From: Rhodoglobus sp.
GTDB taxonomy: Bacteria > Actinomycetota > Actinomycetes > Actinomycetales > Microbacteriaceae
Assembly (NCBI GenBank): GCA_025464445.1
Contig: JAODLY010000028.1
Coordinates: 27,439 to 91,438 of the forward strand
DNA: 64,000 nucleotides
Reading direction: 5' to 3'
Part shown: in pieces, positions 7,937 through 60,984 of the stretch
Layout of the letters: each line of letters begins with the position of its first letter
Numbering within the stretch: position 1 is the stretch's first letter
Translations under genes and position numbers: made by a program
The notes under the pieces: generated by a model
Database searches by the model: none
What the model was told of the DNA's origin: nothing
Seen by the model: the letters and a program-made list of their open reading frames with translations, nothing else

Positions 7937-7978
7937 CCCGCCCATTCTGCCGGGCGCCCGGGCGCTCTCCGGCGAGCG

Positions 7979-8371
7979 TCAGTTGGAGAGCACGGAGAGT
8001 ACGTTGCCCGCAGGGTCGAGGAACCACGCGATGTCAGGGCCCTGACCTGCGGCTTTGCCGCGCGCAACCCCTTTTTCGTCCTGTTGGGCGCCCTCGTACT
8101 TCTCGAACTTCACGCCCTTGGCGACGAGTTCGTCGACAGTCGAATCGATGTCGTCGACCGGGAAGTTCAGCACCGTATAGGAGGCGGGTGTGTGGTCAGG
8201 CTTGGGGTAGACAAACACCACCCCGCCGGAGTCGAGCTGCAACGTGATCGCGCCCATGCCCGCGTCCTCGACCGGGATGCCCAGCGTGTCTTCATAGAAC
8301 TTGCGCGACGCTGCGATGTCATTGGATGACATCCCGCTGAAGGCTTCGGTTGTGCTGAACATAAGATCCTC
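7979..8371 (-). CDS. VOC (glyoxalase-like) family protein
   Basis: AFSGMSSNDIAASRKFYEDTLGIPVED...GPDIAWFLDPAGNVLSV. Confidence 0.85.
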   Translation of the reverse strand, partial: EDLMFSTTEAFSGMSSNDIAASRKFYEDTLGIPVEDAGMGAITLQLDSGGVVFVYPKPDHTPASYTVLNFPVDDIDSTVDELVAKGVKFEKYEGAQQDEKGVARGKAAGQGPDIAWFLDPAGNVLSVLSN

Positions 8372-8447
8372 CATGATCATTCGCCGCACGATATGTTTAC
8401 GCTGTCAACACTTGCATACAATGGTGTGAACGTCCACAGGGAGGCCC

Positions 8448-9092
8448 GTGACAACCCCAGCAGAAGGACAGCGCCAGAACTACCACCACGGCGACCTCAT
8501 GCAGGCGTTGCTGGCGGCGGGGGTCGACCTTGCGCGCGAAGGCGGGCCGGATGCCGTGGTGCTGCGCGAGGCGACAAGGCGCGTCGGGGTGTCGCCCAAC
8601 GCCGCCTACCGGCACTTCGCCGACCGCGATGCGCTGCTCGACGCGGTGAGCGACGCGGCCCTCGCACAGCTCGCGACGGCTATCGACGCCCACTTCGACG
8701 CGATCGCACCAGGCGATGCGGAGACAGTGGCGCGCGCCCACCTGCGGGCGGTTGGCACTGGCTACGTGGCCTTCGCCCAAGATGAACCCGGACTGTTCCG
8801 CGCGGCATTCTTCGTGCCGGCCGACCTGCACAATCCGGGTACCGCGGCGAGATCGGGGCCGAGCGGCAGGAGCCCGTTCGTGCTTCTCGCCGACGCACTC
8901 GACGAGTTCGTCGCGTGCGGCATCATGCCTTCGGCGCGCCGACCACAAGCCGAATTTCTCGCGTGGTCGGCGGTGCACGGGTTTGCCCTGCTCGTGATCG
9001 ACGGGCCGCTGCGCGCCCTGCCCCGCGGGCAGGCCGACGCCGTGACCCAGCGCGTGATCGACATGGTGGAGGCGGGGCTGACCGCGCCCTGA
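8448..9092 (+). CDS. TetR/AcrR family regulator
   Basis: NYHHGDLMQALLAAGVDLAREGGPDAVVLREATRRVGVSPNAAYRHFADRDALL HTH. Confidence 0.9.
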   Translation: MTTPAEGQRQNYHHGDLMQALLAAGVDLAREGGPDAVVLREATRRVGVSPNAAYRHFADRDALLDAVSDAALAQLATAIDAHFDAIAPGDAETVARAHLRAVGTGYVAFAQDEPGLFRAAFFVPADLHNPGTAARSGPSGRSPFVLLADALDEFVACGIMPSARRPQAEFLAWSAVHGFALLVIDGPLRALPRGQADAVTQRVIDMVEAGLTAP

Positions 9093-9104
9093 CCCGCCCG
9101 TCAG

Positions 9105-9155
9105 TTGCGGACTTCCGCCCCGCTGCGTGTCACCCGGGTGGGCGAAAGTCCGCAA
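9105..9155. repeat. Imperfect palindrome (15/16 bp arms)
   Basis: ttgcggacttccgccc ... gggcgaaagtccgcaa. Confidence 0.8.
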
Positions 9156-9219
9156 GTCGAGTCGTTCCCCGGACGAGTCGTTCCCCGGACGAGTCGTTCC
9201 CTGGACGAGTCGTTCCCTG
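9156..9219. repeat. 16-bp tandem repeat x4 (gacgagtcgttcccYg)
   Basis: Four abutting 16-bp units, 9156-9171, 9172-9187, 9188-9203, 9204-9219. Confidence 0.95.
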
Positions 9220-9240
9220 GACAATATGTAGTGTGGAAGG

Positions 9241-9735
9241 GTGCAGCCGCTCAGCCCAGCCGAGATCCGCGAGAGCTTCGTGAATGCCACGCAGGGCGAG
9301 ATCGAGCGCATCCCGCTGCCCGGCCTGCACGAGGTGATCTGGGGCGACCGGGAGTACCTCGGCTGGCGCGACGCGCAGGCGCACCAGCGCGGCTACCTCG
9401 TGCACTGGGTGAGTGACCGGCCAGTCGGAATCGTGCTGCGATCATCGGATTTCGCGTTGCGTGCCGGCATCTCGGCGATGTGCTCGTTGTGCCGCATCAC
9501 CCAGCCCTCGGGCCAGGTGTCGCTGTTCTCGGCTCCACGGGCCGGGCAGGCGGGACGCGACGGCAACACCGTGGGCACCTACATCTGCGACGACCTGGCG
9601 TGCTCGCACATGATCCGCGTGCTTCCGCCGCCGCATCCCATGCAGATCCCGCGCGAGGAGTTGCTCGCGCAGCGCTCGACGAGCCTGCTCGAGCGGGTGC
9701 AGGCGTTCACCGCGGACGTGATGAAGACGGCCTGA
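9241..9735 (+). CDS. FBP (FusB/EF-G-binding-like zinc-finger) domain protein
   Basis: CSLCRITQPSGQVSLFSAPRAGQAGRDGNTVGTYICDDLACSHMIR; four-Cys treble-clef-like pattern. Confidence 0.75.
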   Translation: MQPLSPAEIRESFVNATQGEIERIPLPGLHEVIWGDREYLGWRDAQAHQRGYLVHWVSDRPVGIVLRSSDFALRAGISAMCSLCRITQPSGQVSLFSAPRAGQAGRDGNTVGTYICDDLACSHMIRVLPPPHPMQIPREELLAQRSTSLLERVQAFTADVMKTA

Positions 9736-9791
9736 CCAGCGTGCCCGCGTCGCTACACCGACGCCTGACTCAGCGCGCGAGCTCGTTGGGG

Positions 9792-9853
9792 CGTCGAAAC
9801 TCCAGTTTCGACGTGTGCGGTTAGGCGTCCGCGCAAGAACTGGCTTTTCGACG
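9792..9853. repeat. Hairpin/palindromic element
   Basis: cgtcgaaact-cc-agtttcgacg plus outer pairing with aactggcttttcgacg. Confidence 0.75.
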
Positions 9854-10018
9854 GCAGTCGCGGCAAACGGGGCCGACGGTGCTCGGGCGGGTTTGGCGAC
9901 GGAACGGGATCGCTCCAGCATTCGCTCGCGCGGGCTCGCGCACGGCCGCGCGTCCACCTGACTCACACATGGCGGGCCGCGATCCTGATGAGATCTTGAC
10001 ACGGGGCCCGAAATCCCG

Positions 10019-10042
10019 ATACTTAAGTACATGCTTAAGTAT
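10019..10042. promoter_or_regulatory. Palindromic operator spanning the start codon of the ArsR-like gene
   Basis: atacttaag-tacatg-cttaagtat, 9-bp perfect arms; ATG at 10031. Confidence 0.7.
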
Positions 10043-10408
10043 TCGGATGACGCATCACCCGCCCAGGTCGATGCCTTGTTCCACGCGCTCGCCGACGCCA
10101 GCCGCCGTTCGATGGTGGATCGGCTCAGCCGCGGGCCGGCGTCGGTGACCGAGCTCGCGACGCTCCTGACCATCACCCTCGCCGCGGTCGTGCAGCACCT
10201 GAAGGTGCTCGAATCCAGCGGGCTCGTGACGACCGAGAAGGTCGGCCGGGTGCGCAGCGCAACCCTCAGGACCGCGGCATTGGCGAGCGTCGAAGCCTGG
10301 ATCGCCGACCGGCGGGTCACCTGGGAGCGCCGGTACGACCGCCTCGGGGCATTCCTCGATTCACCAACCCCGCAAGATCCATCAACCCCACAAGGAGAGA
10401 CAGCATGA
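10031..10408 (+). CDS. ArsR-family HTH regulator
   Basis: ALADASRRSMVDRLSRGPASVTELATLLTITLAAVVQHLKVLESSGLV. Confidence 0.9.
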   Translation: MLKYSDDASPAQVDALFHALADASRRSMVDRLSRGPASVTELATLLTITLAAVVQHLKVLESSGLVTTEKVGRVRSATLRTAALASVEAWIADRRVTWERRYDRLGAFLDSPTPQDPSTPQGETA

Positions 10409-10857
10409 CCGACTACAGCATCACCCACGCCGACTTCACGCTGAAGCGCAGCTTCAAGTCCAGCCCGGCCAGGGTCTTCCAGGCATTCTCCGACAAGGCG
10501 AAGAAGGCCGCCTGGTTCGGGGATCCGACCGTCGATGGGGGCGAGTGGACGTTCGACTTCCGCGAAGGCGGCATCGAGGTGAACAGCGGCGAGTTCCACG
10601 GCCAGTCGAACTCGTTCGAAGCGCTGTACCACGACATCGTGCCGGACACCCGGATCGTCTTCAGCTACACGATGCGTGTCGGCGGCGTGAAGCTGTCGGC
10701 GTCGCTGACCACCATCGAGTTCGAGCCGGAAGGGACGGGCACGCTCGTTGTCCACACCGAGAAGGGCGCGTTCTTCGACGGCCACGAAGACCCGAAGATC
10801 CGGGAGGAAGGCACCGCCGGGATCCTCGAGGCCCTCGCGGCGGCCGTCGACGGGTAG
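10405..10857 (+). CDS. SRPBCC/AHSA1-like protein
   Basis: LKRSFKSSPARVFQAFSDKAKKAAWFGDP; start overlaps previous stop. Confidence 0.85.
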   Translation: MTDYSITHADFTLKRSFKSSPARVFQAFSDKAKKAAWFGDPTVDGGEWTFDFREGGIEVNSGEFHGQSNSFEALYHDIVPDTRIVFSYTMRVGGVKLSASLTTIEFEPEGTGTLVVHTEKGAFFDGHEDPKIREEGTAGILEALAAAVDG

Positions 10858-11027
10858 CTGTCCCTGGCTCGCCCACGCCGCCAGTGCAGCACCTCCGAAG
10901 TCGGTCGGCCGCGAGCGACGGATGGATGCCGCGGCACGCCGCCCCACGTGGGCGACGCGCCGCGGCATCCCGCGTTTGTCCGGCATGGGCCGGGTACTTG
11001 ACACCGGCGTCGCCCCGCCCTACTCTG

Positions 11028-11057
11028 TAACCAATCGCTTTCAGAACTAATTGGTTA
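11028..11057. promoter_or_regulatory. Palindromic operator upstream of second ArsR-like gene
   Basis: taaccaat...attggtta, 8-bp perfect arms. Confidence 0.6.
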
Positions 11058-11066
11058 TGGAGAGTC

Positions 11067-11444
11067 GTGGAAACGCAACAGCTCGACTCGGTGTTCGCGG
11101 CCCTCGCCGACCCCACACGGCGGGCGCTGCTGCAGCGCCTCACCGATGGGGACGCGAGCGTCGCCCAGCTTGCCGAGCCGTTCAGGATGAGCCAGCCGGC
11201 GATCTCCAAGCACCTCAAGGTGCTCGAGGCCGCCGGGCTGATCTCGCGCAACCGCGTCGCCACCGCGCGCTACAGCCACCTGGAAGCCGAGCCGCTGAAG
11301 GAGGCGACCGAATACATGGAACGGTACCGCCGCTTCTGGGCGAAGACCTTCGACCGACTGGATGCCGCGCTCGCCGCGTTCCAGCAGGCCGAGACGACCG
11401 AGACAGCCGACATCACGAACAAGGAGAACGAGAACGATGACTGA
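11067..11444 (+). CDS. ArsR-family HTH regulator
   Basis: VFAALADPTRRALLQRLTDGDASVAQLAEPFRMSQPAISKHLKVLEAAGLI. Confidence 0.92.
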   Translation: METQQLDSVFAALADPTRRALLQRLTDGDASVAQLAEPFRMSQPAISKHLKVLEAAGLISRNRVATARYSHLEAEPLKEATEYMERYRRFWAKTFDRLDAALAAFQQAETTETADITNKENENDD

Positions 11445-11904
11445 CCTCATCCCCGCGGCGACCGACCGCGACGTCTACATCAGCCGCAGTTTCGCGGCAC
11501 CGCGCGAGGTGGTCTGGAAGTTCTGGACCGACCCCGAGCGCCTCGCCGAATGGTTCGGCCCGACCGGCGTCCACACTCCCGTCGAGAACATCGACGTCAG
11601 CCTCGAGCCGGGCGGCCGCTGGGACCTCGGGATGACCGACGACGCGACCGGCGAGGTCTACCCGCTGTCGAGCCGCATCCTGAAGGTCATCGAGGGCGAA
11701 TACCTCGAGATGCACATCGAGGCGGCCAGCGGTGGGCAGATCGAAGACGTGATCCTGCGCGTGCAATTCCACGACCACGGCGAGACTACGAGGATGACCC
11801 TGCACCAGGGCCCGTTCACCCCCGAGTTCCGCGACCTGACAATCGAGGGCTGGTACGAGTCCTTCTGCAAGCTCGACAAGATCTTCGAAGGAGCCAACTC
11901 ATGA
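11437..11904 (+). CDS. SRPBCC/AHSA1-like protein
   Basis: DVYISRSFAAPREVVWKFWTDPERLAEWFGPTG. Confidence 0.9.
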   Translation: MTDLIPAATDRDVYISRSFAAPREVVWKFWTDPERLAEWFGPTGVHTPVENIDVSLEPGGRWDLGMTDDATGEVYPLSSRILKVIEGEYLEMHIEAASGGQIEDVILRVQFHDHGETTRMTLHQGPFTPEFRDLTIEGWYESFCKLDKIFEGANS

Positions 11905-12713
11905 CCACCCAAACGTCCACGGCAACCCAGACCGTCACCTCGAAGGACGGCACGACCATCGCCTACGAGAAGGTCGGGACCGGGCCGGCACTCGTGCTCG
12001 TCGACGGGGCGATGTGCTACCGCGACTTCGGCCCATGCCGCAGCCTCGCCAACCACCTCGCGGACAAGTACACCGTCTACTTCTACGACCGTCGCGGACG
12101 CGGGGCGAGCGGGGATGTGCAGCCGTACGCGCCGGAGCGTGAGTTCGAGGATCTCGCGGCGGTCATCGCGGCCACGGGCCGGGACGCGTATGTTCTGGGG
12201 TTCTCGTCAGGGGCCGGGCTGGCCTTGGAGGCCGCGGCATCCGGGGTGAAAATGAAGAAGCTCGCCTCGTACGAGGCACCCTTCGTCGGCCAGGTGCTCG
12301 TCAAGGGCAAGCCCGTCGACGCTCTCGCGGAACTCAGGAAGAAGCTCGCCGCTGGTGACCGATCCGGCGCAGTCGGTTACTTCATGGTGCAAGTGGTGGG
12401 CGGGCCTGCCTTCCTGCCCTTCATGATGAAGTACCTCATGCCCAAGGTCGGCAAGCAGCTGGCGGCCGTAGCGCACACGCTGCCCTACGACACCGAGCTC
12501 ATGCGCGGCTTCGTCGTGCCGAAGGCCGAATTCGCCAAGATCACCGTGCCGACGCTCGTGATGGGCGGTAGCAAGGCCAAACCCAACATGGTCGCGGCAG
12601 TGCAGGGTGTTGCGGACGCCGTTCCGGGATCCGTGCACAAGACGCTCGCCGGGCAGACGCACCAGGTGAAGGATGAGGCCATCGCGCCGGAGCTCATCGC
12701 GTTCTTCCGATAG
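11901..12713 (+). CDS. Alpha/beta hydrolase
   Basis: SKDGTTIAYEKVGTGPALVLVDGA...DRRGRGASG...VLGFSSGAGLAL. Confidence 0.9.
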   Translation: MTTQTSTATQTVTSKDGTTIAYEKVGTGPALVLVDGAMCYRDFGPCRSLANHLADKYTVYFYDRRGRGASGDVQPYAPEREFEDLAAVIAATGRDAYVLGFSSGAGLALEAAASGVKMKKLASYEAPFVGQVLVKGKPVDALAELRKKLAAGDRSGAVGYFMVQVVGGPAFLPFMMKYLMPKVGKQLAAVAHTLPYDTELMRGFVVPKAEFAKITVPTLVMGGSKAKPNMVAAVQGVADAVPGSVHKTLAGQTHQVKDEAIAPELIAFFR

Positions 12714-12721
12714 CCGAGGCG

Positions 12722-14077
12722 CTACCAGTCCAGCGGACCGGCAGTTCCGGCTGGGTAGCTGTCGAGTGGGACCTTGCCCGCGCGCCACGCGTCGATGACG
12801 GGGCTGATGATCCGCCAGCACTGTTCGGCGACGTCGCCGCGCACCGACAGCGTGGGGTCGCATTCGAGCAGCTCGGCCAGCACCTCGCCGTACGCGCTCA
12901 GCTCCCCCGCACCGAGGTCGCTGTGCAGCGGGACCCGCTCGAGGGTGAACGGGTCGCCCTGGCCGTTGATCACGAGGTCGAGATCGAGGGTCGCCGGCTT
13001 CAGCGAGATGCGAAGGCAGGATGGGCCCTCCACGCCGGTGAGCCCCGTGGGCAGGTGCGGCACGGCCTTGAACACCACGCGGATATCCTGGCGGGACTCC
13101 CCCAGCCCCTTGCCGGAACGCAGGATGAACGGGACCCCAGCCCAGCGCCAGTTGTCGATGGCGAGCGTGACCTCGGCGAGCGTCTCGGTCCCGCGGGACG
13201 CGTCGACGCCATCCTCGTCCTGGTACGCGGGCAGTCTCCTGCCCTCGATGGTGCCTGCGGCGTAGCGTGCCCTGTGGCTCGACTTGCCGTTCTTCGCCCA
13301 ACTGCGTGTCGCCCGCAGTACCTGCGCCATCGACCCGCGCAGGTCGTCTTCGCTCAGGCTCGCGGGTGGCTCCATCGCCGTGAGTGCGAGCACGAGCAGC
13401 AGGTGGCTCTGGATCATGTCGGTCAGCGCGCCGGCCTTGTCGTAGTAGCCAGCCCTGCCTTCCAGGGCGAGCATCTCGTCGAAAACGATCTCCACCCGAT
13501 CCACGTTCTGCGAGGAGAACAGCGGTTCGAAGATGCGATTCGCGAAGCGCAGGCCGAGCAGGTTGAGCACAGTCGACTTTCCGAGGAAGTGGTCGACGCG
13601 GAATAGCTGCTCCTCCGGCAGCATGCTCTCGAGCAGCCGGTTGAGCGACTTCGCCGACGCCAGGTCTGTGCCGAACGGCTTCTCGAGGGCGAGCGTGATG
13701 CCCTTCGGCAGGTCCAACTTCGAGAGCTGAGTGCAGGCGATCACCGTGACGGCGGGTGGCAGCGCGAAGTAGAGCGCGATGCGGCCCGGGGCCTCGGCGA
13801 GCACCCGGGCGAGATCACTTGCGCTCGTGGCATCCCCCTGCACGTAGCGCGTCTTCGCGGCGACCTTCCTGGCGAGCGGCGAGGGCTCGGCATCGAAGGC
13901 GGCCTTGACCTTCTCGCGCCACGCGGCATCCGTCTGCTGCGCGCGGTCGACCCCGATCACGAGCAGGTCCGCGCCGCGGGACGACCCGAGATACGACGCA
14001 AGGCCCGGCAACAGCAGGCGGGATGTCAGGTCACCGCCCGCACCGAGGATGACAAGGGTATCGATGCGTTCAGCCAC
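12722..14077 (-). CDS. zwf: Glucose-6-phosphate dehydrogenase
   Basis: ILGAGGDLTSRLLLPGL...LFRVDHFLGKSTVLNLLGLRFAN (G6PD active-site region). Confidence 0.92.
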   Translation of the reverse strand: MAERIDTLVILGAGGDLTSRLLLPGLASYLGSSRGADLLVIGVDRAQQTDAAWREKVKAAFDAEPSPLARKVAAKTRYVQGDATSASDLARVLAEAPGRIALYFALPPAVTVIACTQLSKLDLPKGITLALEKPFGTDLASAKSLNRLLESMLPEEQLFRVDHFLGKSTVLNLLGLRFANRIFEPLFSSQNVDRVEIVFDEMLALEGRAGYYDKAGALTDMIQSHLLLVLALTAMEPPASLSEDDLRGSMAQVLRATRSWAKNGKSSHRARYAAGTIEGRRLPAYQDEDGVDASRGTETLAEVTLAIDNWRWAGVPFILRSGKGLGESRQDIRVVFKAVPHLPTGLTGVEGPSCLRISLKPATLDLDLVINGQGDPFTLERVPLHSDLGAGELSAYGEVLAELLECDPTLSVRGDVAEQCWRIISPVIDAWRAGKVPLDSYPAGTAGPLDW

Positions 14078-14116
14078 CCTGCCGACAGTACTACGCGTGC
14101 TATCAGGCCAGCCTGG

Positions 14117-14746
14117 TCAGTCGGGTTCGGCAGCCTTGACAGGTTCAGCGGCCTCGATTGATGACACGGCCTCCGAGTCGGTCACCGCGACGGGGGTGCC
14201 GTCGGCCTGCTCGACAACGACGGCAGGCCCGCGGTGGCCCCATGTCATCCACAGCCAGATGAGCACGCCGACGATTATCGTGCCGACCACGAAGACGAAC
14301 GGACCGAGAAAAAGCGGCCCGGAGACGTTCGTGTCCGAGAGTTTGCCCGCGATGAACAGGTAGAGCACGAAGAGCGGCAGGTCGAGGACCGCCGCGATCA
14401 CCACCGCGCTCAGGGTCGTCGCCCACGGCTTACGCACCCTGCCGCCCTTGAGGATCCATCCGCTGACAAGGAATCCGAGAAGCATCAGCAGCAACGAGAT
14501 CACGCCGAAGACGACCCCGACAACCTGGATAACGGCGCCGGCCTGTGACAGGAAGGCGCTTATCGACTGCACGTCGCCGAATCCGCCCGCGATTCCGCCG
14601 ATCGACGCGCCGAAAACGAGCAGCAGGCCACCGCCGAGCAGCAGGAATCCGAGCCCGAGCCAGCCGAGCGCAAAGAGGAGGTGCCCGAAGATTCCCGCGA
14701 AGATTGCCGCCCCGCGCTGGCGGCCGGTGAGCATTGCTTTCTGCAT
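14117..14746 (-). CDS. Multi-pass membrane protein, unknown function
   Basis: Several hydrophobic helices; no family recognised. Confidence 0.6.
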   Translation of the reverse strand: MQKAMLTGRQRGAAIFAGIFGHLLFALGWLGLGFLLLGGGLLLVFGASIGGIAGGFGDVQSISAFLSQAGAVIQVVGVVFGVISLLLMLLGFLVSGWILKGGRVRKPWATTLSAVVIAAVLDLPLFVLYLFIAGKLSDTNVSGPLFLGPFVFVVGTIIVGVLIWLWMTWGHRGPAVVVEQADGTPVAVTDSEAVSSIEAAEPVKAAEPD

Positions 14747-14821
14747 GTCTCATTCATAGTGCCGGGGATGACGCGCCCACAAGCAGGCGGACCGCCCGGC
14801 ACACGGGCGGTCCGCCGCCGG

Positions 14822-15562
14822 TCAGCTCGCCATCGTCCTGCGCAGGATCGCCCGCTCCCCCAGCGTCCACGCCGTGGTGACGGCGAGGTAGATCGTCGCC
14901 GCGAGCGGCACGAGGGCCGCGAAGACCACGGTGAGGAACGGGAGCCAGCTCAACACGGCGCCCGCGGACCGCAGTGCACCGGCGACGGGTACTACGGGTA
15001 CGGGAGCCATGCGCAGTGCGGTTCGGCGCGACATCCACGCCACCGCGGCGATCGCCAGTAGCAGCCCGACAAACACGAGCAGCTGCGGCCACGCGGTGGC
15101 AGAGCCCAGCACCGCGAGCAGGGACGAGCCGAGCGAAACCCCGAACAGGTGTTCGGTGAGCAGTGCATTCGGATGGCCGGCGATGATCGCGAGCACGAAC
15201 AGGCCGTAGAGCACAGAGAGCACAGGTGCCTGCAGCAGCGTCGGCAGGATCCCGCCGAACGGGGAGGCCTTCTCCTGCCGGTACAGTTCGAGCGTCTTGC
15301 GCTGCAGCAGTTGCGGGTTCTTCTTGTACTTGCGCTGCAGCTCAGCGAGTTTCGGCGCAAGCCGCCTGCGGATGATCTCCGCCCGCACCTGCGAGATGCC
15401 CACCGGTACGAGCAGTGTGCGCACAATCGTTGTCAACAGCACTATTGCGAATGCGGCGCTCGAGGTACCGCCAAACGGCTCGAGCGCTGCCGAAAGCGCA
15501 GAGATGACGTGGTACGCCCCGTCGAGCACAGCTGCGACAGGGGGAAACGAATAGAAGTTCAT
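14822..15562 (-). CDS. YidC/Oxa1-family membrane insertase (accessory paralogue)
   Basis: LLTTIVRTLLVPVGISQVRAEIIRRRLAPKLAELQRKYKKNPQLLQRKTLELYRQEKASPFGGILPTLLQAPVL. Confidence 0.9.
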   Translation of the reverse strand: MNFYSFPPVAAVLDGAYHVISALSAALEPFGGTSSAAFAIVLLTTIVRTLLVPVGISQVRAEIIRRRLAPKLAELQRKYKKNPQLLQRKTLELYRQEKASPFGGILPTLLQAPVLSVLYGLFVLAIIAGHPNALLTEHLFGVSLGSSLLAVLGSATAWPQLLVFVGLLLAIAAVAWMSRRTALRMAPVPVVPVAGALRSAGAVLSWLPFLTVVFAALVPLAATIYLAVTTAWTLGERAILRRTMAS

Positions 15563-15622
15563 GTCAGTCCTAAGGGTCGAATCGAGTGAGGGGCCATGGC
15601 CGCTCACCGTCCGACGGACTGG

Positions 15623-15916
15623 CTATGCGGCCGCGAGACCCCGCGACGGCGCCCTCGAGCGTGTGCGACCCGGAGTTGCGGGATGCCGCGGCGCGGGCAT
15701 CCCCGACAGCGACTGCCTGTGCTGCCGCGCGCGGTGGCCGATGGTCACGACGCGCGAGCGGAATCCACCACCCGAGTACCTGGCGGCGAGCAGCATCCCG
15801 ACCGCGAGCACGGCGACACCGCTTGCGAGCACGGACGCGGACCCCGGTTGGGTGATCGAAGCCGCGAGCAGGGCAAGCGTCATGGCCATGACGAGCCGCT
15901 CCAGCATCCAACGCAT
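15623..15916 (-). CDS. Small membrane protein (DUF6412-like)
   Basis: MRWMLERLVMAMTLALLAASITQPGSA...; directly upstream of yidC-like gene. Confidence 0.55.
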   Translation of the reverse strand: MRWMLERLVMAMTLALLAASITQPGSASVLASGVAVLAVGMLLAARYSGGGFRSRVVTIGHRARQHRQSLSGMPAPRHPATPGRTRSRAPSRGLAAA

Positions 15917-51632: not shown

Positions 51633-52349
51633 TCAGTTGGCCTTGACTAGCTCGATCAGCAACGTCGCCGACGACGAGGAGGCACCTCCCGCCAACGGGG
51701 TGATCGTCAGCGCGGTGGAGTTGCCCACCGGGTTGCGCACCGTCAGCACCTGGCCGACCGTGGTCGTGGCGACGAGGGTAGTAAGGCCGATGAGCGACGT
51801 TCCCGTCGCACGACCGGTCACCGTGTATTGCAGCGGGACACCGTCGAGTGTGAGCTCCAGCTGGCCGGCCTCGGTGACTGACACCTGGAACGACACCCGG
51901 TAGACCCCCGGCGTGGCCAGCGTGAAAGCGGTGGTAGAGGATCGCGCGATCCCCGTGTTCGTCGTCGGCCCGTTCTGGGGGAACTCAACATCCCCGCCGA
52001 CGGCGACGGTTGCCGTGTTGTCCGGGGGCATGAGCGCGAAGAAGAGCGCCGAGGCGCTCGATCCGGGAGCGCCAGGAACCCCGGCCGGCCCTTGTGGCCC
52101 GATGGCGCCCGGTGCTCCGGCGGCGCCCGATGACCCGTCTGAGCCGGACGCTCCCCTTGGCCCTGCCGCCCCCTGCGCGCCCGCCGCTCCGGGGAGGCCC
52201 GGAGCACCAGTGGGACCCTGTGCACCCTGGGGCCCTGCCGCACCGTCCGCGCCGGCGGGGCCGACCGCCGCACATCCGATCAGGGGGAGCACCAGCGCCC
52301 ACGAGATCGCGCCCACAATTAATCTTGATCCGCGCAAAGTCGCGTCCTC
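51633..52349 (-). CDS. Collagen-like (Gly-X-Y) lipoprotein, paralogue B
   Basis: [35 protein letters not shown]-terminal domain similar to paralogue A; exact start uncertain. Confidence 0.85.
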
Positions 52350-52450
52350 CCGGTCAGTGAATTGCCACCAGCGTAGGGGCAACGCTGTCGATTGGGGCTC
52401 CCCCACGTCGTCACCTCAGTGACAGCATCACTACAAGGGAAGGAACAACG

Positions 52451-54115: not shown

Positions 54116-55171
54116 GTGGTCCCTGAGTCGGAATATGATCACGAACTCACGTGGATTTTGAAGGCTGCTTCGACATCTGCGCAGCGCTTGCAGTTTGATG
54201 AGCTGCTGAGGAAGACAGATGGGGCGTTTCCAAGCGATGTGCTCAGCGCCGCCCGACGCTTAGACCTTCAAATTGACTTCGCTGACCACGAGGCCTTGGA
54301 AGTTCGTGACGGACCGGATCCTTCACCAGCCCAAGGTGAGTTCTATTTCGATCGAGCGACCGCCAAGTTTTTAGCGTCCGCGCTGATGGGCAGAGTCCTG
54401 CTGCTAGGCGCACCATCTGTGGCCGCCGAATTGACGCATCAAGATCGACCGCTGACGCTTGTCGACTCCAGCCCTTGGCTAAACGAGCGATTCGGAATCA
54501 CTGGCTCTCTTCGAGTTGGCACGGTTGAGACCTTTCGGGCTGGGGCGGCCTTTGACAGCGCTGTGTTGGACCCGCCGTGGTATTTCCCAGAAATGACCAC
54601 TTGGCTAAGCATCGCTGCCAACGCGGTGAAGGCTGGTGGGACAATCTTGATGCCGCTCTTGGGCCGACTGACCCGCCCCTCAGCCACTCGGGATCGCATA
54701 GAGATCCTAGAAATGGCTTCACGCGTCGGATCAGTGAGCGTCGTGGAGAATGTCGTCGCCTATGACAGCCCGCACTTCGAAAGACGAGCGATAGCTCGTT
54801 CGGGCGGGCGCCTGGGTCGGGAGTGGCGACGCGCCTCGCTGCTCAAGATTTCGCGAAGTGACGCTGACATCGAGCCCCTTCTAGTCCGGAACCAGGATCC
54901 CTCGACCGTCTGGGTGGACCGACGAATCGGTCAGTCAATCGTTTCCATCCGAAGAAAAAACCCTGAATCTGGCACCCGACCCGTCGTCCATTTGCTGGAC
55001 GGGATAAGCCGTCGTGATCCTCGTATCGCAGCTTCAAACGTCTGGACATCTGAGAGTACGGCGGCCGTCGTTGACCGTCCGGAGGTGCTACTTGACGAAC
55101 TCTCGCAAGTCGAGTCCTCTTGGAGCTCGGCGACAAGGGCCCTCCTGGACCGATTGGAGATTGACCATTGA
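54116..55171 (+). CDS. DPPW-motif methyltransferase-like protein (MT-A70/N6-adenine-MTase-like)
   Basis: RVLLLGAPSVAAELTHQDRPLTLVDSSPWL...FDSAVLDPPWYFPEMTTWLSIAANAVKAGGTILMPL; GTG start with tagggag SD. Confidence 0.6.
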   Translation: MVPESEYDHELTWILKAASTSAQRLQFDELLRKTDGAFPSDVLSAARRLDLQIDFADHEALEVRDGPDPSPAQGEFYFDRATAKFLASALMGRVLLLGAPSVAAELTHQDRPLTLVDSSPWLNERFGITGSLRVGTVETFRAGAAFDSAVLDPPWYFPEMTTWLSIAANAVKAGGTILMPLLGRLTRPSATRDRIEILEMASRVGSVSVVENVVAYDSPHFERRAIARSGGRLGREWRRASLLKISRSDADIEPLLVRNQDPSTVWVDRRIGQSIVSIRRKNPESGTRPVVHLLDGISRRDPRIAASNVWTSESTAAVVDRPEVLLDELSQVESSWSSATRALLDRLEIDH

Positions 55172-56562
55172 TTGTCTTGCGCTTTTCAAGTCTGGATGAC
55201 GAAACGATTTCCGCGCATGACGCACTCATCGCTGATGAGGGATTCGCTTGGTGGGGATGGTGGAAAAAACGGCACGAACCCTGGCCGGACTCGGGTACTC
55301 TCAGCCGCATTGGACGAGCCCGACAGATTGGACTTGTCGACCGCGCCGCTGAGTTGTATTACGTCGCCTCATCGCGGGACATGGTGCACGCATCCGGCGA
55401 TGTCATCTCATCACCAGACTCGGCGCATTCCCCACGCTATTACTCGGACGCTCTCTTGCCGATGTGGCTCAAGTTCGTTCGAATAGAGAGATTGAGCGCC
55501 AACGAATGGGCAGAGAAGTTTGGGCGTGTCCCAGAGGGCGACTCAACATTGTTCGAGCAATCGCCGCAGGAGCTAAGCCGCTCGGCAGGCGGCGCTCCAG
55601 TGCGCTTTTCAAATGCGCCAGAAAGTCGAACCGCGATCCTTCACATATCGGACTTGCACTTTGGCGATGACCACGCGTATTCGGGGCAGCACACAATCGA
55701 CAACTCTATCGAGCTGCTAGATAACCTCGTCCGCGATCTTCCGTCTGCGCCGGCAGTTGTTGTCGTTTCTGGGGATTTGACTACCAGAGGAGGGCAAGCG
55801 GGCTTGGACGCTGCGCTCGAATTTCTCGAGCGGCTTGCCCTGAGACTGCAACTTCCGCGGGACAACATCATTGTCGTACCGGGCAATCACGACATACTCG
55901 TCGACGACCTTGACGACCGTAAGGACTTCGATAACGAAGGGCCATTCAGAACTTTCGTTGAGGACTTTTACGGTGAGCCTGTCGCTTTGGAGAGGATCCA
56001 CCTCGTCACGTTGTCGGACGGTCGCAAGTTTGCGTTCGGGTTAGTGAACTCGTCGCGACCCCGAACGTCGCGGCTCATGGATTACGGGTATGTAGGGCGA
56101 GACCGGGCAGCTCCAATAATGGATCTGCTCGCTCGACTGGCCGATCAGGGCTGCATCACGTTCTTTGTCCTGCACCATCATCTGCAGTCCGCGCAGGGAT
56201 TCGAGGAGCCGATCATCAACCGCCCAGTCAGCATCACTCTGGATGCTGGTGAGCTTGTTTCGTCCGCAGCTCGCAGCAACGTCACAGCGATACTGCACGG
56301 GCATCAGCATTTACCGTTTGTCGGCTCCGCCACTCGCGCAGCGGAGTTCTCACACAGCGGCCCAACTCCACTTCCTCCCACTACTCGGGCGGTCCCAACT
56401 CTCGGAGCGGGATCGCTGTCGGCAGGGATAAGTCGACTTGGCGACGAACTGCGCGACAACTCATTTTCGTTCTATGAGGTACTTGAGAACGAGTTACGAA
56501 TACGCGTCTATCGACTCAATCCAAATCAATACAGCTCGTTGATCTGGGACTTCCATATTTGA
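55168..56562 (+). CDS. Metallophosphoesterase with about 150-aa extra N-terminal domain
   Basis: HISDLHFGDDH, VVSGDLTTRG, VPGNHD, VLHHHLQ, ILHGHQHLP; TTG start overlapping previous stop. Confidence 0.85.
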   Translation: MIVLRFSSLDDETISAHDALIADEGFAWWGWWKKRHEPWPDSGTLSRIGRARQIGLVDRAAELYYVASSRDMVHASGDVISSPDSAHSPRYYSDALLPMWLKFVRIERLSANEWAEKFGRVPEGDSTLFEQSPQELSRSAGGAPVRFSNAPESRTAILHISDLHFGDDHAYSGQHTIDNSIELLDNLVRDLPSAPAVVVVSGDLTTRGGQAGLDAALEFLERLALRLQLPRDNIIVVPGNHDILVDDLDDRKDFDNEGPFRTFVEDFYGEPVALERIHLVTLSDGRKFAFGLVNSSRPRTSRLMDYGYVGRDRAAPIMDLLARLADQGCITFFVLHHHLQSAQGFEEPIINRPVSITLDAGELVSSAARSNVTAILHGHQHLPFVGSATRAAEFSHSGPTPLPPTTRAVPTLGAGSLSAGISRLGDELRDNSFSFYEVLENELRIRVYRLNPNQYSSLIWDFHI

Positions 56563-56684: not shown

Positions 56685-57344
56685 CTAGATAGCTAGCTCT
56701 TCGAGAAATTCTTGCCCTCGCCAGCGTTCGACCCGCACAACGTGATCAAGAATGTCATCAACCCCACCAATCACGCAGAGTTCCGCAACATCATTGGCGG
56801 CGGCCACAGCCCTCCGCCGCGGCGGGTGCGGATACTGTCCAATCGTCTTGAAGGTATCGCTACCTCTAGGCACGGGGTTGTAGATCGTCGATCCCGAATT
56901 GATCCTTGAAAGCCGCACAGATTGTGCGTGTACGGCCAAGAGACTAGCCGTATCAACCACTATGACGGTCTGAGCCTGGGCGCGATATGGCCCGGCATTC
57001 AGAAGGCCCATTAGCCGCTTGGGTTGAAGCCAGAAGAAAACTCGGCTATTAAGCATCTCCAGCCACTGAACTGGCGTCATGTCAGTGAGGCATCTGTCCA
57101 ATGCGGACATCCGTAGCGGCTTCTGATCTCTGACCACCGCTGTTCCGTACCTAGGGGAGCTAATCTCAACGGACTCAGGCCGTCGTTCGTGAGTCAGAAT
57201 TTCTCGTTCAGCATGAGGGACTTCGAAGAGTCGTAACAATCGATCTGTACTCAGAAGGCCATTCGCCTTTATGGACGGCCACGATCCATCTTCGGCCATG
57301 TGGTACAAGAAGGGATACAAACTGACCAAGTCGCCCTGAATCAA
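56685..57344 (-). CDS. DUF7002/DarT-like (putative ADP-ribosyltransferase-fold) protein
   Basis: LYHMAEDGSWPSIKANGLLSTDRLLRLFEV...SRVFFWLQPKRLMGLLNAGPYRAQAQTVIVVDTASLLAVHAQSVRLSRINSGST. Confidence 0.5.
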   Translation of the reverse strand: MIQGDLVSLYPFLYHMAEDGSWPSIKANGLLSTDRLLRLFEVPHAEREILTHERRPESVEISSPRYGTAVVRDQKPLRMSALDRCLTDMTPVQWLEMLNSRVFFWLQPKRLMGLLNAGPYRAQAQTVIVVDTASLLAVHAQSVRLSRINSGSTIYNPVPRGSDTFKTIGQYPHPPRRRAVAAANDVAELCVIGGVDDILDHVVRVERWRGQEFLEELAI

Positions 57345-57395
57345 GTTATTGCCCCTTTGGCCTGTGCGGAATGAAATTGCACTTTGTTCAACTAT

Positions 57396-59060
57396 CTACC
57401 ACTCCCGTCGATCGATCATGCTTCGCGCGTCGAACCCCGTGCACACGAGGGAGACGGGAGCGCCGGCAACTCGCTCAACCTCCTCGACAAAGTGAATCGT
57501 CTCGGTAGTCAATTGATCAAACCGCCGTGCATTCTGATTCGCTGCGTCGAGATAGTCCGCAAACGTGACCGCGATGTCCGTCGCCCCGTTTAGTTCGGAA
57601 GCACGCCGTAGCAGCTCCCAATCGAACTCCGCGACCCGACGCTTGCTTCCGCTGACGGATCCCTTCTCTCGCTCACGCAGCATTGCCTCGTCGAGGCTCG
57701 CTCGTTTCGCGATGACGTCCCAATCGATCTCCTGCGACATTTGGCCGGAAGATGATGATGGCGGGTTGCCGACGCGGATCGGATATGTCCGAACAACCAT
57801 GACAACCCGACGAAGGCGGTGAGGCCCAATTCCAGCCTCTGCTAGACATGCGCTAGTCGTCGTGTCTCGACTAGTCACCCAAGGGTAGAAGCCATGAAAG
57901 AGACTGAGTAGTGTTCCCTGTGTCCCTTCCAGCATGACCTTCTTGTGGGCGCGGAAGGCCATCTCCAAGATGGCTCCGGTTGGCCGAATATATGCAGCAA
58001 GTTCGGTGACGTTCTTCGCGAGCCTCACTGGGGGTGCGACCTCAGAGCTCCTACCCATAATCCTCCGGGCTGCCGCAGCGCCACCTCCTTTGCCCGTGGA
58101 GCCAATGTCCTTCTTCATCTGTTCCTCAGCCTGCCGGTCTTCTGGCTCGATGACCATCGCTTGAGGATCTATGAACAGCCGACCCGATTCGACGCCACAA
58201 TCAGCTATCTCTTGTAGAAGAACGTCCAAGTCGAGAGTCGCCCCAGGCCCGATTAGCAGGATCGCACTCGAGTTCGCGAGAGTTCCTGAAGGAAGCAGGC
58301 GGTGAGTGTAGGGGTCGGGCTGCGTCGGCACTTTGTGTCCCGCATTGGGACCACCAACTCGCATCAGAACGTCGTATTCGTTGGCGAGGTGGTAGACGAC
58401 ATTGCCCTTACCTTCGCTTCCATACTGCCCACCTATGAAAACGTCAACTAATCGCTCGGACCGAGATGAACTGAGGCCCAAAGCCGCGATTGCGCGAGCT
58501 AAGACGTCCCTCTCGGAACTACGCGAAGTATCAATGGATACGTCAGCATCCACTTCCAAGCTGGACACATTTGCCTCAGTCGGGTTTGAAGCAACCTCTT
58601 CGTAGGTTGAGAGTTCAACCAGACCACTGTCATCCCGGGACTTGTATCTCGCCGCCAGTACTTCCGCCGGAGCGTGAACGTGAATGTGGGTAACTCTTGA
58701 CGGGAAAGCTGAGCGAAGCGCGCCGATCTGGCCAACGATTCGCACCGCATCGACGACGACTAATCCGGTGCCAGCAGCGCCGCTAGCGATGAGTTCAGCA
58801 ACCTCATCGGCGACCCACGCTCCCCCCGTTTCTGTGTCGAGTTGCTCACCGAATTTCTGCATTGCGCGCCGTTCCGCATCTAACGTCTCGCCGCGGGATA
58901 CAGCGACATCGCGCATGAGATCCTGTGTACGCACATAAGCAAGGCCAAACATGTCAGCCAGATTCCTGCCAAGCGTTGACTTGCCCGCTCCAACTGGCCC
59001 GCTTAGAACGACGATGCGGGGTGTCACCTCCTCGGGGACGACCCACATCGGCTTAGCCAT
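57396..59060 (-). CDS. Fusion: N-terminal P-loop nucleotide kinase + adenylosuccinate synthetase (PurA/PurZ-like) domain
   Basis: RIVVLSGPVGAGKSTLGRNLA; DVFIGGQYGSEGKGNVVYHLA...GGPNAGHKV...IGSTGKGGGAA...EGTQGTLLSLFHGFYPWVTSRDTTTSACLAEAGIGP...YPIRVG; ORF can extend to 59108. Confidence 0.85.
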   Translation of the reverse strand: MAKPMWVVPEEVTPRIVVLSGPVGAGKSTLGRNLADMFGLAYVRTQDLMRDVAVSRGETLDAERRAMQKFGEQLDTETGGAWVADEVAELIASGAAGTGLVVVDAVRIVGQIGALRSAFPSRVTHIHVHAPAEVLAARYKSRDDSGLVELSTYEEVASNPTEANVSSLEVDADVSIDTSRSSERDVLARAIAALGLSSSRSERLVDVFIGGQYGSEGKGNVVYHLANEYDVLMRVGGPNAGHKVPTQPDPYTHRLLPSGTLANSSAILLIGPGATLDLDVLLQEIADCGVESGRLFIDPQAMVIEPEDRQAEEQMKKDIGSTGKGGGAAAARRIMGRSSEVAPPVRLAKNVTELAAYIRPTGAILEMAFRAHKKVMLEGTQGTLLSLFHGFYPWVTSRDTTTSACLAEAGIGPHRLRRVVMVVRTYPIRVGNPPSSSSGQMSQEIDWDVIAKRASLDEAMLREREKGSVSGSKRRVAEFDWELLRRASELNGATDIAVTFADYLDAANQNARRFDQLTTETIHFVEEVERVAGAPVSLVCTGFDARSMIDRREW

Positions 59061-60435
59061 TAGTTGTTCGCGCAGCGTAGGGGATACTCGGTCGCGTGTG
59101 GACGACAACCTTCAGCCCCGCATCCACCAAGTAGGACACAACAAGCCTCTCCACTTCATCCCAACGACCGCCGGCTTGGCCAGCGCCGAGCCGCGGTAGG
59201 TGAATTTCAGCCTGACGTGTCGTCGCCAGGTCAGCGAGTTTTGCCAGAGACTCTTCAAGCGCGTCGTAACGAAGCCGAGGACCCCCACCGCCGAATCCTT
59301 CTTGGGCAACGAGGCTCGCTACCCCAACCTTCCGATCGGCGATATCCCGCTCAACAAAGTGAAGCCCGCCAAGGTCAAGGTTTCGCGGGGAGGCAATCGT
59401 CCAAGCGCGGAATGCCTGTGCAAAGTCCGGGAACGCTTTGGCAAGGGTCCCGGCCGCACCCACGTGATTCCAGGTTCGGACAGAGCCTGATACGACATGA
59501 GCAAAGATGACCGGCGTTCTTCCCTCGGCCACTTCGAGTAGGTCGGAGACGACGAAGTCCAAGCCGGAGATTGCGAGTCTCTCATCCTCGCGCTCCAAGA
59601 GGGCAAGGACTCGGGGCCACTGGCTGCCCGGGTAAGCGGGAACTCCCACGCACTGCAAGTAGAGCTTTTCTTCGGCGATCTCCACCGTCCCTCGGACGGT
59701 TTGACCGACGGCCGCGCAATTGAGCAAGGGTTGGATATTTTCAAGCAGATCACCATGGCCGATGGCGGCCAGCAGATCCGACTCTCGGGCTCTGGCCGAG
59801 CTGGCCACATAATCTACCCGCATGGCAAGAGAAGCAAGATGCGTTGGTCGCGATGTCGCGAGCATCGTGAGCGACCTCGGCGTCGCTTCCACTAGCCGGC
59901 GAAGAAGCGCTTCAGTCGATACATCCCACTTACGGCGCGTTTCCATGATGAAGTCAATGTCCGGGTCAACCGTGAGCAGCCCCTCGACCGCCTGGCCAGG
60001 GATTAGCAAATCTGCGGCAATTACGTCGCAGACGAGCTCCAGCTCCCAATCGTCAGTTGCGACATCGGCGATTGATCCAGCCGCAGTTCGGTGACGTGGG
60101 CGATCTGCGACGTCAGCAAAGCGTGAGTGCGCGATCTCGTGAGCAATGCTGAAACGCAAGCGACCGCGTGGGCGGCTCGGGTTGTATTCGATTACAAGAT
60201 CTTGCATCTCAGTTGCGATGATTCGCGCATCCAAGAGGTCGTCCTTGGGGCGGAGTTGTATACCCAAAGCACTAGCAAGGCCAAATACGTCAACAGGCGG
60301 CCCGGAGAGCCCCTGCTGGTTCGCCAGCTCGACCAACTGCTCCGCCACGTTGTGCGCATGCTCCAGTGGATCCTGCCCATCCGAAAAGGCAAGGACCGAG
60401 TGATTCGACCAACTGTGAGCAATCGTCTCTGACAC
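59053..60435 (-). CDS. ImmA/IrrE metalloprotease + macro-domain fusion
   Basis: RLRFSIAHEIAHSRFAD; C-terminal FAHVVSGSVRTWNHVGAAGTLAKAFPDFAQAFRAW...IHLPRLGAGQAGGRWDEVERLV. Confidence 0.75.
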   Translation of the reverse strand: MSETIAHSWSNHSVLAFSDGQDPLEHAHNVAEQLVELANQQGLSGPPVDVFGLASALGIQLRPKDDLLDARIIATEMQDLVIEYNPSRPRGRLRFSIAHEIAHSRFADVADRPRHRTAAGSIADVATDDWELELVCDVIAADLLIPGQAVEGLLTVDPDIDFIMETRRKWDVSTEALLRRLVEATPRSLTMLATSRPTHLASLAMRVDYVASSARARESDLLAAIGHGDLLENIQPLLNCAAVGQTVRGTVEIAEEKLYLQCVGVPAYPGSQWPRVLALLEREDERLAISGLDFVVSDLLEVAEGRTPVIFAHVVSGSVRTWNHVGAAGTLAKAFPDFAQAFRAWTIASPRNLDLGGLHFVERDIADRKVGVASLVAQEGFGGGGPRLRYDALEESLAKLADLATTRQAEIHLPRLGAGQAGGRWDEVERLVVSYLVDAGLKVVVHTRPSIPYAARTTNG

Positions 60436-60462
60436 AAGGCAAAGACTAGGGCTATCCCACGA

Positions 60463-60984
60463 CTATTCGAGGAATAGTGGCGGTTGATCCAAGAGAACTC
60501 TGCGAACGTCCGGGGGACTGTACGTCGCTGGCTTCAGGACTTTTCCATCACCCCTCATCAGAGGACGGCCATCGGCGCCGAGCTTACTCATGTTGGCACG
60601 GTGCACTTCTCTCAGAACTGCGTCAAGATCGATTCCATAAGTCAACGCAGAGCCGTAAGCCACATAAACGATATCGGCGAGAGCGTCGGCGATCGCCACA
60701 AGATCGGCGTTCTCCACCGCGTCAGCAAACTCCTCAAACTCCTCCCGAAGAAGTTCCACTCTCAAACTGCCCAGGCCCCCTGCGACGTTCTGTTGCGGCC
60801 TGGTCTCGATCGGTAGGTTGAAAGCAAGATGGAACTCAGCCACGGAAGCGATCGCTTCACTGGCACCGTTCGAACGACGGGGACGTCGAGCCACCAGCCG
60901 TGGCGGCAGCCCGAGGTCGAGCTCCGGCTGGGGCGCCACAGGAGAAGGATCAACCTTCGCGACAAGGTTGATCACGCTACGCAT
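60463..60984 (-). CDS. MazG/HisE-like nucleotide pyrophosphohydrolase
   Basis: VAEFHLAFNLPIETRPQQ...RVELLREEFEEFADAVENADLVAIADALADIVYVAYGSALTYGIDLDAVLREVHRANMSKLGADGRP; start uncertain (GTG 60843 also plausible). Confidence 0.8.
   Translation of the reverse strand: MRSVINLVAKVDPSPVAPQPELDLGLPPRLVARRPRRSNGASEAIASVAEFHLAFNLPIETRPQQNVAGGLGSLRVELLREEFEEFADAVENADLVAIADALADIVYVAYGSALTYGIDLDAVLREVHRANMSKLGADGRPLMRGDGKVLKPATYSPPDVRRVLLDQPPLFLE

Follow-up and report, generated by a model that had tools for sequence, protein, structure and literature searches.

We analysed a 64,000-nucleotide stretch of the Rhodoglobus sp. genome (contig JAODLY010000028.1 of assembly GCA_025464445.1; hereafter the window), in which four minus-strand open reading frames (ORFs) at 60984-56685 form an operon. 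The genes are ordered MazG-like, ImmA-macro, kinase-synthetase (KinPurZ) and DUF7002, with the following features:

60463-60984, minus strand: MazG-like nucleotide pyrophosphohydrolase (PRA-PH/MazG fold), accessory, 173 amino acids (aa) (Pfam PRA-PH 6.6e-20; nearest solved structure DR2231)
59053-60435, minus strand: ImmA-macro, an ImmA/IrrE-family metalloprotease fused to a macro domain, 460 aa, GTG start (Pfam M78; PADLOC capP; AlphaFold/Foldseek)
57396-59060, minus strand: KinPurZ, a predicted adenylate-kinase-like P-loop kinase fused to a PurZ-type synthetase, 554 aa (ATG 59060) or 570 aa (TTG 59108)
58464-59024, minus strand: KinPurZ kinase domain, residues 29-215 in TTG-start numbering (profile search of solved structures; Walker A)
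57399-58451, minus strand: KinPurZ PurZ domain, residues 220-570, with a GSEGKG motif in which Ser replaces Asp13 of PurA (NCBIfam, PHROG, tree, diagnostic columns)
56685-57344, minus strand: DUF7002 (PF22531), predicted ADP-ribosyltransferase (ART) fold, DarT-like, 219 aa, TTG start (Pfam 6e-66; AlphaFold; Foldseek; hhalign)

The gap between the MazG-like and ImmA-macro genes is 27 bp, and that between KinPurZ and DUF7002 is 51 bp. KinPurZ, which stops at 57396, overlaps ImmA-macro by 8 bp if it starts at ATG 59060 and by 56 bp if it starts at TTG 59108; the ATG is the best start, the 8-bp overlap with the ImmA-macro stop being a typical coupled arrangement. An earlier note on this DNA had described these four genes with the same junctions (27 bp, overlap, 51 bp) inside an AT-richer island, and both the ORFs and the island are confirmed. 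The GC content of the island is 0.55-0.61 versus 0.65-0.72 outside, and third-position GC (GC3) of the six genes at 54.1-61.0 kb is 0.58-0.62 versus 0.87-0.89 for the flanking sigma factor, nucleoside hydrolase and gatB genes. The operon region is a horizontally acquired island. It starts at ~54.1 kb and is thus wider than the four genes, adding two plus-strand genes (54116-56562). The close relative G646 has both outer flanks on a single contig (L281), with different DNA in between. Occurrence is patchy, at 1/27 genomes in the genus and 3/200 in the family; within the genus, the ImmA-macro gene was found in the window genome only. A promoter scan yielded nothing exceeding shuffled sequences, and an Rfam search yielded no RNA.

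Conservation of the operon

Scanning a species-level genome collection returned 414 relatives, and the best 79 of 414 were all KinPurZ fusions or clear fragments. Operon organisation was counted over species-level loci plus viral, plasmid and family-level loci, those with enough flanking sequence being eligible. DUF7002 is adjacent to KinPurZ and co-directional with it in 80/93 eligible loci, and ImmA-macro lies directly upstream of KinPurZ in 55/91; with these counts the operon is not a chance grouping. Intergenic gaps in operon loci are typically a few bases, or the genes overlap. The full triad of ImmA-macro, KinPurZ and DUF7002 was found in 54 loci, a few of them near-duplicates, from at least ten phyla: Actinomycetota, Acidobacteriota, Pseudomonadota, Chloroflexota, Verrucomicrobiota, Planctomycetota, Bacteroidota, Myxococcota, Gemmatimonadota and Binatota among bacteria, together with two archaeal groups.

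The conserved co-occurrence expected by the earlier note was therefore found in this neighbourhood survey, for three genes of the proposed four. Apart from the window, 12 loci have the MazG gene, most of them from Actinomycetota, so a four-gene core was dropped in favour of a core of three genes. The core is ImmA-macro, KinPurZ and DUF7002, and MazG or HD enzymes are lineage-specific accessory nucleotide hydrolases. Of the MazZ-type route that had been suggested for MazG, the MazG/PRA-PH fold stands (7e-20) and the MazZ identity does not: the nearest solved relative is DR2231 (E 4e-15), with MazZ not among the matches. Rhizobiales loci carry an HD deoxynucleotidase and an unrelated protein of ~455 aa (cl3) instead of MazG; the solved structures nearest to this HD enzyme are Atu1052/YfbR, which ruled it out as DatZ.

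The KinPurZ synthetase and kinase

KinPurZ consists of a P-loop kinase domain (2e-9) and an Adenylsucc_synt domain (5e-56). The synthetase matches the NCBIfam PurZ model (8e-60, with a score below the model cut-off) and the PHROG family "2-aminooxy adenylosuccinate synthetase" (2e-69); in Pfam, NCBIfam and PHROG searches, PurZ models score about equal to bacterial PurA models on the window protein. Diagnostic residues separate the two types. The catalytic Asp13 of PurA is replaced by Ser in all 147 phage PurZ proteins examined, a hallmark of PurZ (PMC12884076). We found Ser at this position in every KinPurZ with a readable motif, in a set gathered partly by the GSEGKG pattern, and Asp in 31/31 PurA proteins of the same genome set; Ser is also present in the relatives found by plain tblastn (H1-H8, G011, G132). 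This Ser together with T128S, K267R and T271I (numbering of the PurA segment) occurs in 46/46 KinPurZ and 42/42 phage PurZ proteins and is absent from PurA. A maximum-likelihood tree built from 107 proteins separates KinPurZ and phage PurZ from bacterial and archaeal PurA (support 100/99) and joins all KinPurZ in a single clade (100/100). A separate, normal housekeeping PurA is encoded in 36/36 carrier genomes tested, and also in the window's own genome. Judged by its sequence, the window synthetase is thus of the PurZ type and not a housekeeping PurA; the tree, the diagnostic residues and the separate PurA genes exclude a housekeeping paralogue. The PurZ-like assignment of the earlier note, which had named a position inside PurA as the contrary outcome, is upheld.

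Profile searches of solved structures with the N-terminal domain retrieved adenylate kinases, which bears out the fused kinase noted earlier as a domain resembling nucleoside monophosphate (NMP) kinases. The domain has a Walker A motif (GPxGxGKST), an invariant D-x2-R-x3-Q (D96, R99, Q103), an invariant R130 and a near-invariant R134. We take D-x2-R-x3-Q to be the NMP-site motif of adenylate kinases. With its Walker A, NMP-site Arg...Gln and LID arginines, this half has the predicted features of an adenylate-kinase-like NMP kinase. A second, free small copy of the kinase adjoins the fusion gene at six loci (L100, L102, L105, L114, L115, L123).

The PurZ/PurZ0 enzymes of Z-genome phages (phiVC8, S-2L; PMC8342488, PMC12884076) resemble KinPurZ in the Asp13-to-Ser exchange, the other PurZ-specific residues and a clade apart from PurA, and also in the MazG or HD hydrolase partners seen at some KinPurZ loci. 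KinPurZ differs from them in being fused to a kinase, in its bacterial and archaeal hosts and in its ART and protease-macro partners. Viral relatives also exist. On four viral contigs, KinPurZ is found with no DUF7002: two have a DNA polymerase gene upstream of it (L121, L124) and two have a nucleoside deoxyribosyltransferase (NDT)-MazG fusion beside it (L004, L120). DNA polymerase and NDT/MazG are gene types used by PurZ phages (PMC12884076). By analogy, such neighbours favour a deoxynucleotide as the KinPurZ product, and they show that phage DNA metabolism can make use of KinPurZ. The four contigs are candidate Z-like phages with a fused kinase.

This evidence bears on whether the operon could be a generator of 2-aminoadenine (Z), the product of which would enter DNA to poison phage replication or mark self DNA; DNA would then also be the target of DUF7002 and ImmA-macro. 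PurZ chemistry and a kinase are at hand, the host PurB could complete the base, phage KinPurZ adjoins DNA polymerase genes, and the S-2L Z-cluster suffices to put Z into E. coli DNA, with toxic effect (PMC8342488). However, the Z-genome pathway comprises PurZ, MazZ or DutZ, DatZ or DmtZ, and DpoZ, and the window operon has no DatZ-type dATPase, MazZ or Z-specific polymerase; the Rhizobiales HD enzyme and MazG are closest to Atu1052/YfbR and DR2231, respectively, and constitutive incorporation of Z would be costly. We consider a Z generator quite unlikely.

The ART-fold protein and the protease-macro fusion

Searching the Protein Data Bank (PDB) by sequence with DUF7002 gave talin noise only, so a fold comparison was required. 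The AlphaFold model (mean confidence, pLDDT, 95.3) has M. tuberculosis DarT as its best Foldseek match in the PDB (E 4e-4, probability 1.00), followed by other ARTs; Foldseek against viral proteins gave weak ART matches only. In hhalign, DUF7002 aligns with DarT at E 2e-5, and the N-terminal Tyr-His (YH motif) and the catalytic Glu align. Pfam assigns DUF7002 only, with no match to its DarT family (PF14487). Six residues (H15, R55, R72, D73, N149, E188) are invariant in 56/56 DUF7002 sequences; they include the position of the catalytic Glu (E188) and the predicted NAD-binding His and Arg (H15, R55). Because fold match, profile alignment and invariant residues agree, DUF7002 is predicted to be a divergent ART with its catalytic positions retained, in line with the DarT-like protein suggested in the earlier note.

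The protease-macro fusion, likewise anticipated, is seen by Pfam, PHROG and Foldseek: ImmA-macro has an M78 protease domain (Pfam 9e-8) and a macro domain (PHROG 3e-20; Foldseek 8e-13), and matches PADLOC capP (4e-19). Foldseek searches with its AlphaFold model (pLDDT 88) retrieved IrrE/PprI and CapP (7t5t) for the protease part, and macro proteins of B. thetaiotaomicron and S. coelicolor, ALC1, DarG and TARG1 for the macro part. HEXXH and a conserved Glu (E133) are invariant in 38/38 ImmA-macro proteins. The macro domain has an invariant Gln378, at the position where TARG1 and DarG presumably have their catalytic Lys. We infer that ImmA-macro is more readily a ligand-sensing protease than an antitoxin enzyme. 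It shares the M78 fold and HEXXH with CapP and IrrE (PprI) and differs in its C-terminal macro domain and in its partners: no conserved neighbour with a helix-turn-helix (HTH), such as a CapH- or DdrO-type repressor, was found among the gene clusters of the conserved operon. As a possible ligand sensor in a defence effector, the macro domain resembles that of type II Thoeris ThsA, which senses His-ADPR; here the partner domain is a protease and not a membrane effector, and there is no TIR protein.

The two proteins together recall DarTG, which also pairs an ART-fold enzyme, DarT being the nearest solved structure, with a macro domain like that of DarG and TARG1. In a DarTG-like toxin-antitoxin or abortive module, DUF7002 would be the toxin, ADP-ribosylating DNA or a nucleotide, ImmA-macro the antitoxin or de-modifier, and KinPurZ the supplier or remover of a regulating nucleotide; the tight operon suits such an arrangement, as do the resemblances of DUF7002 to DarT by fold and profile and of the macro domain to DarG/TARG1. 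DarTG itself is known as a phage defence (a reference given in PMC13092281). The present operon differs in having KinPurZ between the two, an ImmA protease attached to the macro domain, and an ART-fold protein that Pfam keeps as a family of its own (DUF7002). Moreover, KinPurZ is the most constant partner and ImmA-macro is often missing (80/93 versus 55/91), which is odd for an antitoxin; Gln378 occupies the place where we would expect the DarG/TARG1 Lys, and DUF7002 also occurs alone next to dnaE. We consider a toxin-antitoxin module unlikely; it and the Z generator are the main rivals of the defence system favoured below.

Defence context and proposed function

Gene neighbours of KinPurZ were set against matched controls, the neighbours of housekeeping PurA, which for the most part came from the same genomes. 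With 118 proteins on either side and a threshold of 1e-10, 195 PADLOC families matched near KinPurZ versus 9 near PurA; since these families are redundant, the difference is an enrichment signal and not a gene count. Contributors near KinPurZ include type I restriction-modification (R-M), PD-T4-6, Mads components and phage integrases, in keeping with the defence-island context that had been surmised. In Rhizobium and Agrobacterium, the system lies on conjugative plasmids beside UvrD/AAA pairs, AbiE, SIR2 and AbiJ-type genes, and it is also present on viral contigs L122, L123 and L125.

Such surroundings bear on a metabolic or secondary-metabolite role, in which the operon would synthesise or salvage a purine analogue and merely be located in variable islands. 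Biosynthetic clusters of the nucleoside type can indeed contain a PurA-like gene (in L034 with folE, purB, queE and queC), and DUF7002 has chromosomal stand-alone members. However, Asp13 is retained in the L034 protein, whose place in the tree is with archaeal PurA. No genes for tailoring, export or resistance accompany the triad, which adjoins R-M and other defence genes, and ART, protease and macro parts better suit conflict systems. We regard a metabolic role as very unlikely. The L034 cluster itself (7483-15831, R. leguminosarum pCC283b_4) comprises folE, purB, queE, IMPDH, nitrile hydratase, queC and queD genes along with the PurA-like gene, and has the look of a biosynthetic pathway for deazapurine nucleosides.

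On balance, we favour the view that the operon is a horizontally spread, uncharacterised nucleotide-based defence system with a three-protein core, in which a base-modified purine nucleotide would be coupled to NAD+-dependent ADP-ribosylation. Judging from its residues and phylogeny, the PurZ half would use ATP or GTP to attach aspartate at the 6-position of (d)GMP, with N6-succino-2-amino-(d)AMP as the product. Breakdown of host DNA by a phage would provide ample dGMP, and MazG or HD enzymes would shift the dGTP/dGMP balance. The kinase half may then phosphorylate to the diphosphate either the succino compound or the 2-amino-(d)AMP that PurB makes from it, and the unusual purine nucleotide would accumulate only on infection. 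DUF7002 would act as the NAD+-using effector, ADP-ribosylating DNA, a nucleotide or another target. The macro domain of ImmA-macro may bind an ADP-ribose- or nucleotide-type ligand, and its protease would turn the system on or restrain it. A more specific version, which we regard as a tentative possibility, is a cell-encoded immune pathway of bacteria and archaea in which a PurZ-made 2-amino- or succino-purine (deoxy)nucleotide would be an infection-dependent signal or substrate, read or used by the DarT-like ART and the macro-domain protease; an ADP-ribosylated modified nucleotide, for example, would be a new second messenger. If this pathway exists, the polymerase-linked phage KinPurZ may have been taken from immunity, or the reverse.

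Several observations count against the defence reading. Arg303 of E. coli PurA senses ribose by contacting the 2'-OH (PMC8342488), and its position varies (S/T/K/R) across the KinPurZ clade, being Ser in the window protein, so that the sequence is compatible with either dGMP or GMP as substrate. The GSEGKG pattern used in gathering KinPurZ relatives favours the Ser form, R-M families inflate the PADLOC count, and the triad counts hold near-duplicates such as L036/L043 and L118/L125. ImmA-macro is absent from ~40% of loci, and Rhizobiales have the unrelated cl3 protein in its stead. The TM-score of the DUF7002-DarT Foldseek match is low (0.39), though E-value and probability are good. Stand-alone DUF7002 genes are found in ~2-3% of sampled Actinomycetota and follow dnaE, directly or past one small gene, in 5/8 loci examined; the genomes with dnaE-linked DUF7002 had no KinPurZ, and DUF7002 is therefore not an obligatory part of a KinPurZ module.

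Known nucleotide-based immunity offers a parallel in Kongming (KomABC), where NAD+ loss is triggered by dITP, itself the product of a deaminase and kinases (PMC12948488). The likeness is one of logic only: a base-modified purine deoxynucleotide, a kinase step and an NAD+-using effector. Here, a synthetase takes the place of the KomA deaminase, the kinase is the operon's own and not that of the phage, and no KomB (HAM1) or KomC (SIR2) domains are present in the operon. The parts have known folds; the gene combination appears to be new, no published account of it having been found. Literature searches, with most subscription papers outside their scope, returned no description of this combination or of bacterial PurZ immunity and no mention of DUF7002; the DefensePredictor paper (PMC13092281) does not mention adenylosuccinate synthetase. 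Descriptions of PurZ have so far come almost exclusively from phages with adenine replaced in their DNA, whereas here a large cellular PurZ-kinase clade is found in a conserved, mobile, defence-associated operon. The origin of PurZ chemistry becomes testable, as does the use of base-modified purine nucleotides as immune signals or poisons beyond Kongming, and the operon gives the DUF7002 family a concrete setting.

Further genes recur around KinPurZ. Genes of the dCTP deaminase/dUTPase fold lie nearby in several phyla (L026 8060-8986, L030 9035-10057, L036 9861-10832, L047, L082). Locus L030 (7296-11937, S. medicae pMl5) combines a kinase-less PurZ, an HD deoxynucleotidase, a dCTP-deaminase-like protein with a predicted transmembrane/coiled-coil tail and a ThiF/E1-like protein. 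In Chloroflexota and archaea, a gene of the ~250-aa family cl7 is repeatedly found shortly after DUF7002, at about 0.7-2.7 kb beyond KinPurZ (L057, L068, L069, L072, L080, L081, L082, L097, L106). At the archaeal locus L075, KinPurZ is present twice, once on each strand; DUF7002 accompanies one copy and ImmA-macro the other. In one actinobacterial family (f18; L244-L247, L251), a stand-alone DUF7002 gene follows dnaE (DNA polymerase III alpha) on the same strand, without KinPurZ.

Two optional neighbours outside the core complete the island in the window:

55168-56562, plus strand: Pua-like domain plus metallophosphoesterase (Pfam Metallophos 2e-18, Pua-like 9e-21)
54116-55171, plus strand: methyltransferase-like gene overlapping the metallophosphoesterase gene (Pfam N6-adenineMlase, weak, 0.003)

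The metallophosphoesterase, a relative of the anti-phage metallophosphatase DS-9A, matches NCBIfam DS9_1_antiphage with 282 bits, below the cut-off of 420. Its relatives lie beside KinPurZ in L025, L028 and L033, where the methyltransferase-like gene travels along. Together the two genes may form a further defence module. The window's own genome has two other matches to the Pfam DarT family (G000:C51:25552-26142 and G000:C55:67887-68468), and outside the island the window encodes a collagen-like repeat protein with a BclA C-terminal domain (51633-52406, minus strand).

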